Below, one piece after another: positions 57,641-61,996 of a stretch of DNA of 64,000 nt (position 1 is its first letter; each line of letters begins with the position of its first letter). The DNA lies in NCBI RefSeq assembly GCF_913060805.1, contig NZ_CAJXTC010000023.1:1-64000 (forward strand), given 5' to 3'. This stretch comes from an uncultured Draconibacterium sp. Lineage in GTDB: Bacteria > Bacteroidota > Bacteroidia > Bacteroidales > Prolixibacteraceae. A program made the translations under genes and the position numbers. The notes below the pieces were generated by a model, which saw nothing but the letters and a program-made list of their open reading frames with translations, was not told the DNA's origin and ran no database searches.

Positions 57641-58414
57641 TCAATTCGCCTCTTGCTTTTCAGGTAGATAACGCCAAAATCGCCTCGGCATATGCTGGCG
57701 TTGCAGTTTTAGATTTTTGCGTTCTTCAATATTGATGTGTTTAAAATACGAGCGCCACAACTTTTGATAAAAATCTTCGCCCTCATGCAGCAACTCCTCT
57801 TTCACCTGTCCGTTGTAGGCATTAAACTGCTTTTTTGTGAGCACCACTTCCTCCACCTTTTCGTTGCCGTACAGAATGCCATAGTTGCGCTTCAAATCGT
57901 AGATCAGCCAGCGCTGATCGGTAAATCGTTTTTGGTAATGATTAATGATCAGTGGAATGACATCGTATCTGGGTTCGATACCGCAAAAATACATCCGGTC
58001 TTTGGTGCGCTGAAACCGAACAAACTGCATCATTCGCATGGCTTCCTTTTTCACCTTTTGCGAGGCTTGCGTAAGGTGCAACACATCAGGATCGCCGTAA
58101 TCGGTTTCCAAATTTAAATGCCCGCTGAACATTCGCCGTAAAAAACGGTAAATTTTCATTTCAATGCCCAGCTCTTCCGACAGGTAAGCGTAAAAAAGCA
58201 GCTGCTTATTTTTTCCCGACAAATGTTTCTGAATACCTTTCCAAACCCGTTCGGCCTTTTTCGGATTGGTGGGAACATCAATGCTTTCTACAAAAAGGTA
58301 GCGCTGCTCGCCATAACGCGAACAAATATCAACCGGAAAATCTTTCCGGCTGTAACAATCGAAAACGCAGGTTAAAAAACCCTCAAATGTATTATCGTAG
58401 GTATATATTTTCAT
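57641..58414 (-). CDS. TIGR03915 family protein (probable DNA metabolism protein, DUF4130)
   Basis: From ATG 58414 the protein has 257 residues. Conserved segments are YDNTFEGFLTCVFDCY at the start, YAYLSEELGIEMKIYRFLRR, VHLTQASQKVKKEAMRMMQF-like pattern in the centre, FVRFQRTKDRMYFCGIEPRY and WLIYDLKRNYGILYG. This family almost always pairs with a TIGR03916 radical SAM protein, and some members are fused to a uracil-DNA glycosylase domain, which is absent here. Its action is unproven; a role in recognising or repairing modified DNA is inferred. It is separated from its partner by 64 bp holding a heptamer repeat. Confidence 0.87.
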   Translation of the reverse strand: MKIYTYDNTFEGFLTCVFDCYSRKDFPVDICSRYGEQRYLFVESIDVPTNPKKAERVWKGIQKHLSGKNKQLLFYAYLSEELGIEMKIYRFLRRMFSGHLNLETDYGDPDVLHLTQASQKVKKEAMRMMQFVRFQRTKDRMYFCGIEPRYDVIPLIINHYQKRFTDQRWLIYDLKRNYGILYGNEKVEEVVLTKKQFNAYNGQVKEELLHEGEDFYQKLWRSYFKHINIEERKNLKLQRQHMPRRFWRYLPEKQEAN

Positions 58415-58417
58415 GAC

Positions 58418-58460
58418 TGGATTCTGGATCTTTGGATTCTGGATTCTGGATTCTGGATAC
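58418..58460. repeat. Heptanucleotide tandem repeat (TGGATTC), about six units
   Basis: Units TGGATTC (one eight-base and two variant units) run from 58418 to 58460 in the spacer between the radical SAM stop and the TIGR03915 start codon, ending four bases before that ATG on the minus strand. Confidence 0.9.
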
Positions 58461-58478
58461 TGTGACTGCAAACTGAGA

Positions 58479-59777
58479 CTAATGCAACGTTGGCAGCACC
58501 GGCTTATAATCGGCAAACAACGACAACTGCGTATTAAGCGAATTTTTGTACTTCGAATTCATCTCACATAGCAATTTATGTCTTAGGCGTTTGGGCTCCC
58601 ACCCCATCCCGGGAGCCGGAAGTTCGTTACAAGTGATAAAATATTTGGCTCGTTTCATCACTATTCCCAGTTTTTTAAGGTGCAATGAATTTAGCCGGCG
58701 GTGCTTTCGCGCCAGAATAATCTTTTGTGCCGACTGCACTCCAACTCCGGGAATCCGAAGTATCATTTCGTAATCCGCACGGTTAATATCCACCGGAAAC
58801 AAGTGCATATTTCGCAAGGCAAAACCTAGTTTCGGATCGACATCAAGATCAAGAAAAGGCTGATCATCGCTTAAAATCTCTTCGGCTTTAAAGTGATAAA
58901 AACGCATTAACCAATCGCTTTGATACAGGCGGTTTTCGCGAACCAGCGGCGGCCGGTTCACCGCGGGCAGTCGAGCATCGTAACTGTTCACCGGCAGGTA
59001 ACCCGAAAAATAAACGCGTTTAAGGTTTTGCTTTTTGTACAAACCCGACGACAGCAAAATAATCTGCCGGTCGGTTTCGGGAGTGGCACCAACAATCAAT
59101 TGTGTACTTTGTCCGGCCGGAGCAAAACGCGGTGCTTTTCGGTACTTTTTTCGTTCTTCCTTTGCCACCAAAATCGAATCGCGGATTTGCCCCATAGGCG
59201 TAACAATATCGGGGTAGTTCTTTTCCGGCGCCAGCTTTTTCAGGTTCGGTTCCGTCGGAATTTCCATGTTCACACTTAGTCGGTCGGCCCAAATTCCGGC
59301 CTCGTGGATCAGCTCACTGCTTGCTCCGGGAATCGCTTTCAGATGAATATAACCGTTGTAGTTTTCTTCTTGCCGAAGCTTTTTAGCCACCAACACCATT
59401 CGCTCCATAGTGTAATCAGGATTTTTAATCACACCCGAACTCAAAAACAATCCTTCAATGTAGTTTCGGCGGTAAAAACCAATGGTCAGGTCGACAATTT
59501 CCTGTGCCGTAAAAGTTGCCCGCGGGCGGTCGTTCGTGCGCCGATTTATACAGTAAGCACAATCGTAAATACAATTGTTGGTCATCAGTATTTTAAACAG
59601 GCTCACACAGCGCCCGTCTTCGGTAAAACTGTGGCAAATGCCGCACGCCACACCACTGCCAATTCCTTTGCTGGTGTTTGCCCGGTTGCTTCCGCTCGAT
59701 GCACACGACACATCGTATTTTGCAGCGTCGGATAATATTTTCAATTTTTCATGTACGGAGTCATTCATGGCACTCAT
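58479..59777 (-). CDS. TIGR03916 family radical SAM protein (putative DNA modification/repair)
   Basis: The 432-residue protein has a radical SAM core with Cys69-x3-Cys73-x2-Cys76 (CIYDCAYC) binding the catalytic [4Fe-4S] cluster. Four earlier cysteines (Cys25, Cys45, Cys48, Cys57) may bind a second cluster or metal. Other conserved segments are GLFLSSGVIKNPDYTMERM, IHLKAIPGASSELI and RFAPAGQSTQLIVGATPETD. A helix-hairpin-helix motif near residues 335-365 (DYEMILRIPGVGVQSAQKII) suggests DNA contact. It pairs with the TIGR03915 gene; the substrate and reaction are unknown. Divergent from the S24 repressor. Confidence 0.9.
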   Translation of the reverse strand: MSAMNDSVHEKLKILSDAAKYDVSCASSGSNRANTSKGIGSGVACGICHSFTEDGRCVSLFKILMTNNCIYDCAYCINRRTNDRPRATFTAQEIVDLTIGFYRRNYIEGLFLSSGVIKNPDYTMERMVLVAKKLRQEENYNGYIHLKAIPGASSELIHEAGIWADRLSVNMEIPTEPNLKKLAPEKNYPDIVTPMGQIRDSILVAKEERKKYRKAPRFAPAGQSTQLIVGATPETDRQIILLSSGLYKKQNLKRVYFSGYLPVNSYDARLPAVNRPPLVRENRLYQSDWLMRFYHFKAEEILSDDQPFLDLDVDPKLGFALRNMHLFPVDINRADYEMILRIPGVGVQSAQKIILARKHRRLNSLHLKKLGIVMKRAKYFITCNELPAPGMGWEPKRLRHKLLCEMNSKYKNSLNTQLSLFADYKPVLPTLH

Positions 59778-59798
59778 CTCATATTGCAGTTTGTAGTC

Positions 59799-59829
59799 AA
59801 AAAAATCCCCGGCGATTATGCCAGGGATT
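59799..59829 (-). terminator. Terminator-like hairpin in the radical SAM gene leader
   Basis: On the minus strand AATCCC-T-GGC pairs with GCC-G-GGGATT (one mismatch) around a six-base loop and runs into a T tract, 22-52 bp upstream of the ATG at 59777. It could be an attenuator, or the end of a separate short transcript. Confidence 0.6.
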
Positions 59830-59906
59830 ACGAACCTCAGTTCATTTTGGGTTTAAACATTTAGGAACATTAAGGAAATATGTTGATGTAAAACAAATAC
59901 TCTTTT

Positions 59907-59923
59907 TGATAATTATATTATCA
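59907..59923. promoter_or_regulatory. Perfect 17-bp palindrome, candidate operator
   Basis: TGATAAT-TAT-ATTATCA is an exact palindrome in the divergent region between the radical SAM and repressor genes. A looser pair GATAAT/ATTAATC lies just downstream at 59932-59946. Both are natural sites for the divergently encoded XRE/S24 repressor. Confidence 0.55.
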
Positions 59924-60002
59924 TTTCTGACGATAATAAATTAATCATTTCTTTTTAAACTGCAAGAATATTTTTTACTTTTGAAGAAATAAATTTTCCC
60001 AC

Positions 60003-60803
60003 ATGAACTATTTTGGCAAGAATATCAAGCTGTTACGAAAAAGAAAAAAACGCACACAAAACGAGGTGGCTGTTGCGCTGGAGTTAAAACGAACTTCTGT
60101 AAATGCACTCGAAAATGAGATCAGCCAACCTACGGTTTCGCACCTTCAGGCTTTTTCAAAATATTTTGGCATCGCTATAGACACGCTGATAAATGTGGAT
60201 TTGCAACAATTATCAGAGAGTCAGTTTGCCGATCTGCAAAATGGTTTTGATGTGTTTATACGCGGCTCGAAATTGCGGGTAATTGCCACAACGGTTGATT
60301 CGGACAACAACGACAATATTGAGTTTGTAAACGAAAAAGCCAAAGCCGGCTATGTAAATTGTTTTGCTGATCCGGAGTACATCGGGAAACTGCCGGTTTT
60401 TCAGTTGCCGTTTTTGTCGAAAGAAAAGAAATACAGAGCTTTTACCATCGAAGGCGACTCGATGTTGCCCATCCCCGCCGGATCGATCGTAATTGGCGAA
60501 TTCATTCAGGATTTCTTCAACATAAAAAGCAACGATGCCTACATTATTGTTACGCGCGACGAAGGTATTGTTTTTAAAGTGGCGCATAATAATATTGAAA
60601 CCACCCGCTCGCTGCACCTGGTTTCGCTGAACAAAGCATTTGAACCGTATGATTTGCCAATTGCCGAGGTTACTGAAGTTTGGAAATTTGTGTGTTACCT
60701 GAACACCAGCATCCCCGAACCGGAGTCGGACATGAGTGTATTGATGAAACAAATGGACGACATGCAACAGGCCATTAAAAAGCTCGGATCGAAAATTGGA
60801 TAA
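60003..60803 (+). CDS. XRE/S24 (LexA/CI-like) transcriptional repressor
   Basis: The 266-residue protein has an N-terminal XRE helix-turn-helix (IKLLRKRKKRTQNEVAVALE, then RTSVNALENEISQPTVSHLQ) and a C-terminal S24 peptidase-like domain. Features of self-cleavage are visible: Ala115-Gly116 in EKAKAGYVNC, Ser153 in EGDSMLPIPAGS and Lys192 in IVFKVAHN. Spacings of 37 and 39 residues fit LexA/CI. It probably represses the divergent DNA-metabolism pair and itself, and is lost on RecA-activated cleavage; this regulation is inferred. A short coiled coil (MKQMDDMQQAIKKLGSKIG) ends the protein. Confidence 0.88.
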   Translation: MNYFGKNIKLLRKRKKRTQNEVAVALELKRTSVNALENEISQPTVSHLQAFSKYFGIAIDTLINVDLQQLSESQFADLQNGFDVFIRGSKLRVIATTVDSDNNDNIEFVNEKAKAGYVNCFADPEYIGKLPVFQLPFLSKEKKYRAFTIEGDSMLPIPAGSIVIGEFIQDFFNIKSNDAYIIVTRDEGIVFKVAHNNIETTRSLHLVSLNKAFEPYDLPIAEVTEVWKFVCYLNTSIPEPESDMSVLMKQMDDMQQAIKKLGSKIG

Positions 60804-60988: not shown

Positions 60989-61996
60989 ATGCAAGAAGCT
61001 CTATTCTATAGCAAAACCACAAACGGACAAGTTCAGTGTGAACTTTGCCCGTGGAACTGTATTTTATCCGATGGACAAACGGGCAATTGCAAAGTAAGGT
61101 CAAACCAAAATGGCGTTTTGCTCACCGAAGTTTATAACAAAGTAGCTGCGCTTGGTTCAGATCCCATTGAAAAGAAACCACTCTATCATTTTTATCCCGG
61201 CAAAAACATTTTATCGGTCGGCGAAGTGGGTTGTAACCTGCATTGCAGCTTTTGCCAGAACCACAGGATTTCACAATGCAAAGCCTCTGAATTTATCGGA
61301 TTCCATAACATCAGCGCTAAAAAAATTGTAAAAGAAGCACTGAAAACCTGGAACAACATTGGCATCGCCTACACCTACAACGAACCTTTTACTTTTTACG
61401 AGTTTTTATTGGAGACTGCACAACTGGCTCATTCAAAAGGATTAAAAAATGTAGTGGTTTCCAACGGTTATATCAACGAAAAACCCTTACAAAAACTTCT
61501 TCCTGTTATTGATGCTTTTAACATCGATTTGAAAGCTTTCTCGAACGACTTTTATAAAAAATACACCAAAGGGAAACTGCAACCGGTTTTAGATACACTC
61601 CAGCAAATTGCAAAAAGTCCGGCTCATCTTGAAATTACAACGTTGGTTATTCCCGGATTAAATGATGATACCTCCGAATTTAAAAGTATGGTAAACTGGA
61701 TTGCAAGCGAATTGGGTGAATCAGTTCCGCTTCATCTTTCTCGCTACTACCCTCAATACAAACTAAATGCCCCCGCCACGCCAATAGACACACTAATTGA
61801 GTTGTACAACCTGGCAAAAACTCAATTACAACATGTTTACCTGGGAAATGTAAGTGATGCGCAACGGTCAGCCACCTATTGTGCCAACTGCAATGCTGAG
61901 CTAATTTCCAGAAACCACTACAACACTGAAATTTCAGCACTTGATACCGAAGGAAAATGCAAAAAATGCGGAACTTTTGCCTCTGTAATTATGTAG
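60989..61996 (+). CDS. amrS: AmmeMemoRadiSam-type radical SAM enzyme (AmrS-like)
   Basis: The 335-residue protein has a radical SAM motif Cys82-x3-Cys86-x2-Cys89 (CNLHCSFC) preceded by a cysteine cluster (Cys17, Cys20, Cys24, Cys34). Conserved segments are YPGKNILSVGEVGCN, YTYNEPFTFYEF, VVSNGYINEKPL and LVIPGLNDDTSEF. A C-terminal ribbon (CANC and CKKC) is present. In other genomes this enzyme accompanies AMMECR1 and Memo proteins in an uncharacterised modification system; neither partner is beside it here. Its last eight bases overlap the convergent Ppx/GppA gene. Confidence 0.85.
   Translation: MQEALFYSKTTNGQVQCELCPWNCILSDGQTGNCKVRSNQNGVLLTEVYNKVAALGSDPIEKKPLYHFYPGKNILSVGEVGCNLHCSFCQNHRISQCKASEFIGFHNISAKKIVKEALKTWNNIGIAYTYNEPFTFYEFLLETAQLAHSKGLKNVVVSNGYINEKPLQKLLPVIDAFNIDLKAFSNDFYKKYTKGKLQPVLDTLQQIAKSPAHLEITTLVIPGLNDDTSEFKSMVNWIASELGESVPLHLSRYYPQYKLNAPATPIDTLIELYNLAKTQLQHVYLGNVSDAQRSATYCANCNAELISRNHYNTEISALDTEGKCKKCGTFASVIM

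Follow-up and report, generated by a model that had tools for sequence, protein, structure and literature searches.

The window analysed here is a stretch of 64,000 nucleotides from the 5.48 Mb genome of an uncultured Draconibacterium sp. (Prolixibacteraceae, Marinilabiliales; NCBI RefSeq assembly GCF_913060805.1, contig NZ_CAJXTC010000023.1, positions 1 to 64,000). The locus under study lies near its end. An operon encoding a radical SAM protein of family TIGR03916 and its TIGR03915/DUF4130 partner is read in one direction, and the gene of an S24-type repressor is read divergently from it. The spacer of 225 bp between the repressor gene and the radical SAM gene carries two related operators, O1 and O2 (Table 1).

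Table 1. Features of the repressor and radical SAM locus, in window coordinates (E, E-value)
Feature	Position	Strand	Support
TIGR03915 / DUF4130 protein, 257 amino acids, radical SAM partner	57641..58414	-	NCBIfam TIGR03915 267.9 bits (cut-off 112.25); Pfam DUF4130 E 3e-50
TIGR03916 radical SAM protein, 432 amino acids	58479..59777	-	NCBIfam 651.8 bits (cut-off 343.5)
Helix-hairpin-helix (HhH) stretch, residues 329-359	58701..58793	-	Pfam HHH_3 E 6.5e-5, below gathering score
Radical SAM cluster motif C69-x3-C73-x2-C76	59550..59573	-	conserved in at least 97% of 101 homologues
Operator O1, TGATAA-N5-TTATCA (TGATAATTATATTATCA)	59907..59923	.	at most 1 of 14 counted positions changed in 23/23 same-genus loci
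Operator O2, CGATAA-N5-TAATCA	59931..59947	.	starts 24 bp from O1; second site with 2 mismatches
Possible -7 promoter box TACTTTTG of repressor gene	59976..59983	+	read from sequence; similar letters in most relatives shown
XRE-S24 repressor (non-canonical LexA type), 266 amino acids	60003..60803	+	HTH_3 E 1.3e-10; Peptidase_S24 E 4.8e-7; PHROG transcriptional repressor E 1.2e-16
Predicted self-cleavage site Ala115-Gly116	60345..60350	+	invariant in 90/90 homologues
Predicted catalytic Ser153	60459..60461	+	invariant in 90/90 homologues
Predicted catalytic Lys192	60576..60578	+	invariant in 90/90 homologues

Both enzymes score far over the curated cut-offs of their families, which bears out the picture of a TIGR03916-TIGR03915 pair with a divergent S24 repressor given by a preliminary description of the letters alone, hereafter the sequence-only reading. 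The start of the TIGR03915 gene was taken as the ATG at 58414, the longest open reading frame (ORF) starting with a TTG at 58516. In the repressor, the HTH_3 and Peptidase_S24 matches exceed the Pfam gathering score and the PHROG match spans residues 1-219; the models of canonical LexA, the winged helix-turn-helix (HTH) PF01726 and NCBIfam lexA, give no match in this protein. The cleavage site and the Ser-Lys dyad had been placed correctly, and their invariance, together with the XRE HTH and the S24 domain, supports the LexA/CI-like identity then proposed. The protein is 95-96% identical to its counterparts in Draconibacterium mangrovi, D. sediminis and D. orientale.

O1 (TGATAAT-TAT-ATTATCA) had been described as a perfect 17-bp palindrome. 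The element is real and conserved, but only 7 of its 8 pairs match, the two 7-bp arms enclosing a 3-bp centre with a T/T flanking pair; the perfect form TGATAATATTATTATCA is present in many relatives. The second related site, O2, had gone unnoticed. By itself the O1 repeat is modest evidence: in Markov shuffles of the 225-bp spacer, a repeat with 7-bp arms and a 3-bp centre arises 0.069 times per shuffle, and any repeat with 7-bp arms and a loop of 0-8 bp 0.53 times. It is conservation among relatives that makes the evidence strong. An unbiased scan of all 6-bp half-sites with spacers of 0-10 ranked TGATAA-N5-TTATCA at the top, with the site in 12/12 thinned upstream regions; across five shuffles, the highest count for any site was 4/12. 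The proposal of a conserved operator is upheld by O1 itself, which has at most one mismatch in all 23 same-genus loci and is found, with one change, also in a genome of another genus (G098). Between O2 and the repressor gene, TACTTTTG may act as the -7 box, by its likeness to TAnnTTTG, the Bacteroidota-type promoter consensus. Five of the relatives (L014, L017, L019, L021 and L022) have an enlarged spacer in which the repressor start lies 173-313 bp from the O1 start; several of these carry short G+C-rich inverted repeats, and O1 and O2 are unmoved.

The arrangement was followed in 37 genomes of the same genus, in 140 genomes of the family and at 29 phylum-wide loci outside the family. The sequence-only reading had named a lack of co-occurrence of repressor and pair in related genomes as one finding that would refute it, and this refutation did not come about. 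With orthologues of the window repressor defined by at least 72% identity, the radical SAM gene and the repressor were found together in 23 of the 37 same-genus genomes, and neither was found in 10 (Fisher p 8e-6, relatedness ignored). The radical SAM gene is present without the orthologue in three genomes (G042, with a fragment, G045 and G057), and a last one (G058) lacks a radical SAM match but has a repressor piece where a contig ends. The repressor genes of G058 and G050 reach contig ends and are therefore cut by the assembly, not shortened. In 23/23 same-genus loci the orthologue is divergent from the radical SAM gene. We regard the locus as a real, conserved regulatory module of a known repressor class; within the genus, repressor, pair and palindrome mostly stay together.

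The repressor has relatives at other damage-response genes. A midpoint-rooted tree was built from 98 homologues, of which 38 are divergent from a radical SAM gene and 33 from dinB. Clade W, to which the window repressor belongs, is grouped with clades B and D in an unsettled order; W as sister of B was considered and dropped, as the tree gives no such order. Clade A, which holds the other radical SAM-linked repressors, lies with clade C on the opposite side of the tree, and the tree program flags a meeting of long branches near A and C. A single clade of all radical SAM-linked repressors is rejected (p-AU, approximately unbiased test, 7e-9), as is a single clade of all dinB-linked ones (p-AU 2e-8). 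By these comparisons, the radical SAM-linked repressors fall in two clades, and their operators have changed along with them, which suggests several rewirings of the switch. The recognition-helix residues 31-36 vary by clade; the clade A operator, TACTAA-N5-TTAGTA, is found with at most one mismatch in 13/15 loci. Clade D repressors adjoin an imuA-like gene in 15/15 cases, followed by a Y-family polymerase gene in L157 (G112), and have operators of TTGTTA/TGTTAT type. For clade C, a half-site scan gave TGTCGA-N5 in 5/7 regions only. At the dinB locus of the source genome (L002, contig C22), an IS200/REP-type transposase gene (1003-1437) separates the dinB-linked repressor gene from dinB and the dinB operators.

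A fixed tandem spacing is common to most of these clades; the counts that follow allow for relatedness by thinning only. In clade W, all 24 loci, that of G098 among them, have a second site identical or similar to CGATAA-N5-TAATCA, at a start-to-start distance from O1 of 24 bp in 21 loci and of 23 bp in 3; after thinning, this offset is kept in 8/8, with one match at 94 other offsets combined. Clade B, beside dinB, shows the 23-24 bp offset in 18/24 loci (thinned, 14/18 with 4 matches elsewhere) and clade D in 15/15 (thinned, 4/4). Clade C, which adjoins dinB in the window genus and in G115, has 23 bp in 26/26 loci where dinB was found (unthinned, leaving out L250, where no dinB was found). 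Clade A is unlike the others, with 18-21 bp in 7/15. In phage lambda, the 17-bp operators of OR are separated by gaps of 6 and 7 bp, that is 23-24 bp from start to start. The window locus resembles lambda CI at OR in its 17-bp operators with starts 23 or 24 bp apart and differs in having two sites instead of three; the likeness is one of geometry, and no operator homology is claimed. Since the spacing is that of lambda OR, we infer that two repressor dimers would bind cooperatively, and the tandem spacing makes it possible to test concretely whether non-canonical LexA proteins bind in this way.

By its structural features, the repressor fits the Bacteroidetes non-canonical LexA proteins, an already known class that the main text of Sanchez-Osuna et al. 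2021 (PMC8565304) describes as CI-like S24 repressors. Exemplars of this class are induced by mitomycin C, paralogues with diverged motifs are reported, the operators have a dyad-N5-dyad form (CTAA-N5-TTAG or GGA-N5-TCC), and a COG1573-COG4277 operon is listed as a predicted SOS target, according to the same text. The window repressor shares with the class the CI-like HTH with S24 domain, the Ala-Gly bond, the Ser-Lys dyad, a dyad-N5-dyad site in its own promoter region, paralogues with diverged operators and the link to COG1573-COG4277, and clade A repressors of other Prolixibacteraceae genera carry the published CTAA-N5-TTAG. It differs in the core of its clade, TGATAA-N5-TTATCA, which is neither of the two motifs named there, in an apparently single private target, and in two operators at a fixed 23-24 bp, whereas that text says no more than that several promoters have two or more sites. 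The main text of PMC8565304 makes no mention of Marinilabiliales, Prolixibacteraceae or Draconibacterium, and, going by the papers listed in searches of the open-licence literature on non-canonical LexA in Bacteroidetes and on SOS in Prolixibacteraceae, none deals with the present locus.

A second point of comparison is FddR of Francisella, in the available text of PMC13148647 a phage-like S24 repressor controlling its own expression together with that of a divergent target. The modules are alike in this architecture and in having a paralogue at dinB. FddR nevertheless belongs to another S24 lineage in its authors' tree, and the tested FddR paralogues share one motif (PMC13148647), whereas the sites seen here differ from one paralogue clade to another. 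The same authors propose that networks grow by module gain and by the loss of redundant repressors (PMC13148647). What is new here is the genus-wide divergent arrangement with a private operator, the tandem sites at 23-24 bp and the change of operators with repressor clades; the class itself is known. The sequence-only reading had found the repressor and its operator, and had overlooked the known class, the second operator, the dinB paralogue and the exchange of repressors.

Operators can also be found at the pair where no repressor gene adjoins it. Thirty-one genomes without a repressor gene adjoining the radical SAM gene were scored, three of which (G071, G116 and G121) have one 2-2.5 kb off; G078, G080, G139 and G127, all with an adjacent repressor, were left out. 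A strong tandem operator, defined as one scoring more than 15 over the 99% shuffle level, lies upstream of the radical SAM gene in 8 of the 31, and in 7 of these 8 its class is that of a repressor in the same genome: W in G097, C in G045 and G057, B in G108, G110 and G132, and A in G071. The exception is G042, whose radical SAM fragment has operator-like sites upstream (L202) and whose sole repressor belongs to clade D. Among the remaining 23 genomes, G101, G016 and G138 have no repressor match; nor has G118, which shows one marginal A-like site. Matrices B, C and W share TGA...A, and 23/23 W loci also pass the B and C shuffle levels, so that class calls rest on the best score; the margin of B over C is narrow in G110 and G132. 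The clade C pattern was written after several C loci and the spacers of G045 and G057 had been viewed, and its zero-mismatch count is not independent; the class C matrix used in the matrix test was built from no radical SAM locus.

The radical SAM protein presents, next to its cluster motif, three further cysteines (C25, C48 and C57) that are equally conserved, in at least 97% of the 101 homologues, and this conservation suggests a second metal site. The HhH motif seen earlier corresponds to a weak match, and the absence of a uracil-DNA glycosylase (UDG) fusion was rightly noted: neither operon protein has a UDG domain match. The question then raised, which enzyme removes the base, is a fair one, for the TIGR03914-type UDG domain exceeds its cut-off in 0/140 family genomes (10 have weaker matches, the source genome none). 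The only UDG match of the source genome is an ordinary Ung, unlinked and on another contig. In Agrobacterium, DUF4130 is fused to a UDG annotated as UdgX family. Compared with the known TIGR03915-TIGR03916 systems, which occur with or without a UDG (COG1573-COG4277), the present pair lies far over both cut-offs and lacks the fusion. In the available text of PMC3765255, DUF4130 is a predicted mutagenesis-related enzyme with links to UDG and to SplB-like radical SAM proteins. The radical SAM protein of the window matches no family model of spore photoproduct lyase, TIGR03916 being its sole NCBIfam match. One scan of IMG/VR returned no relative of TIGR03915, and no paper in the open-licence literature searched names TIGR03915 or TIGR03916, nor UdgX with radical SAM; DUF4130 and COG4277 are each named in one. 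The enzymes most likely act on damaged DNA. The lack of a UDG domain over the TIGR03914 cut-off in the family favours radical-based reversal or processing of the lesion over glycosylase-led base excision, at about even odds. A private module provides a clean handle on the role of this widespread, uncharacterised pair.

Taken as a whole, the locus is best read as a self-contained, damage-induced SOS-type module with a private tandem operator, a reading to which we give a probability of roughly three in four and which is drawn from comparison of sequences. In the undamaged cell, dimers of the XRE-S24 repressor would occupy O1 and O2 between the divergent genes and would repress the radical SAM-DUF4130 operon as well as the repressor gene itself. 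Upon DNA damage, RecA filaments would cause the Ser153-Lys192 dyad to cut the Ala115-Gly116 bond, whereupon the dimers would leave the operators and the enzyme pair would be made. The RecA-triggered step is proposed because the residues are invariant and by reference to the published members of the class; damage induction of the module is plausible on this analogy.

Several observations weigh against this reading. O2 is imperfect; recA shows no O1-like site by eye in the 461 bases read; the paralogues L117, L119, L121 and L142 adjoin unrelated genes, so the notion that every paralogue with an identified neighbour stands beside a damage gene was abandoned; and the structures predicted for TIGR03915 and TIGR03916, each on the basis of nine close sequences, are unusable, with a mean pLDDT (predicted local distance difference test) of 48 and 42. 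Outside the family, an S24 gene adjoins the pair in just 3/29 loci, so that the link fails "across Bacteroidota", the range over which the sequence-only reading had proposed to check it. In genus g2, no tandem operator precedes the radical SAM gene in 16/16 scored loci, although a repressor sharing 50-54% identity with that of the window is present in 14 of these 16 genomes; the coupling is consequently not universal. Finally, TIGR03915 and TIGR03916 are separated in G036, G040, G050, G107, G108 and G110 (on other contigs, or by about 2 to 100 kb), and no clear operator lies upstream of TIGR03915 in the five checked, G050 being the one outside this count: TGATAA sites there have 4-5 mismatches of 12 and other classes at least 3, contrary to the expectation that separated genes would retain the operator. 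The g2 loci and the separated genes are also what one would expect if the operators served only to autoregulate the repressor and the pair were a passive neighbour. This is nevertheless hardly credible, as G097 keeps a W-type tandem site at its radical SAM gene while its W-type repressor lies on another contig, with no site found before it (best 4/14 mismatches), and as G045, G057, G108, G110 and G132 have tandem operators before the pair and no adjacent repressor gene.

It is unlikely that the repressor is instead a general SOS regulator that reaches many targets through weaker sites, in the manner of the published members with large regulons, whose regulons average about nine operons in some families according to the main text of PMC8565304. 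The shorter core GATAA-N5-TTATC does have 20 occurrences in the genome, compared with 7 of the reversed control. However, of 15 of these places that were read, 12 lie inside ORFs, and the outer T...A bases are present at the window site only; the core was rejected as a regulon definition as too loose. The whole site, TGATAAT-N3-ATTATCA, is found once in the genome (in a scan for exact sites, outside which weak ones fall), and because of this single occurrence the switch looks private. The 37 genus genomes together contain 23 copies of it, and 18 of these are at the radical SAM locus; the reversed control gives 0. That recA shows no such site by eye in the bases read argues in the same direction, as does the other such repressor of the source genome, which adjoins dinB (L002): the second operator core at that locus, GACTA-N5-TAGTC, is different and also unique, being found exactly once (control 14). 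The window sites score 21.7 and 17.0 under matrix W and 10.5 and 7.8 under matrix C, the dinB sites -2.6 and 6.7 under W and 21.9 and 19.9 under C; the two operator sets separate by matrix score. Induction of the repressor by a signal other than RecA, phage or metabolic for example, is highly improbable. The similarities of its HTH extend to phage repressors and to other XRE regulators, and a few paralogues adjoin genes without an evident link to DNA damage, but the cleavage site and the dyad are invariant and the neighbours of the homologues are mostly radical SAM genes, dinB and, in clade D, imuA-like genes. There is also the view, rather unlikely, that the pair performs no DNA repair and modifies RNA or nucleotides, or serves phage defence, being merely damage-regulated. 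Among solved structures, TIGR03915 has no relative and TIGR03916 has only weak matches, mostly to HhH proteins, with other marginal ones. The HhH stretch, the fusion of DUF4130 to a UDG in Agrobacterium and the linkage to SOS-type genes speak for repair, and neither enzyme has a match in PADLOC, where matches concern only the HTH region of the repressor.

Beyond the module itself, these comparisons address the open question of how damage-response regulons arise and get rewired. In the tree of the radical SAM gene, G045 and G057 fall inside the W group (98/90 with G063), and on this placement the adjacent repressor was probably lost there. The first site of G045, TGACTATATTTTCGTCA, scores 23.2 under matrix C and 5.2 under W, and that of G057 15.5 under C and 2.5 under W; the second site, common to both, scores 10.6 under C and 10.4 under W and is identical to the W second site at 14/17 positions. 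The first operator in both genomes is thus already of the type read by the dinB-linked repressor, and the region looks like an operator caught in place, partway between two repressors. More broadly, the radical SAM gene lineage seems to present an ordered series, with clade A operators, then W or B, then C (under a midpoint root, some branches being weakly supported), and this rewiring series, in which repressor and operator change together, is the most interesting part of the results. It is an even bet that the SOS response of the Prolixibacteraceae is split into private modules (the enzyme pair, dinB, imuA-imuB), every one of them under a CI-like repressor of its own and, in most clades, with a separate operator pair at the lambda spacing, that targets shift by repressor replacement and by point changes of operators in place, and that G045 and G057 represent a captured step of regulon fusion.

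A few observations concern the surroundings of the pair. In G116 (L113), the genes divergent from it are umuD-umuC, another ORF and a repressor gene of clade A. A gene for an AmmeMemoRadiSam-system radical SAM enzyme lies next to the window locus (60989-61996), and ORF translation reveals a similar gene adjoining the pair in G045 and G057. At the phylum-wide loci, a TIGR03915 relative is found at most 1.5 kb from the radical SAM gene in 28/29 cases, one of them a short match. In L230, L235 and L236, the three of these loci with an S24 gene beside the pair, this gene is another one of S24 type, with a different N-terminus, located upstream of the radical SAM gene and in divergent orientation.

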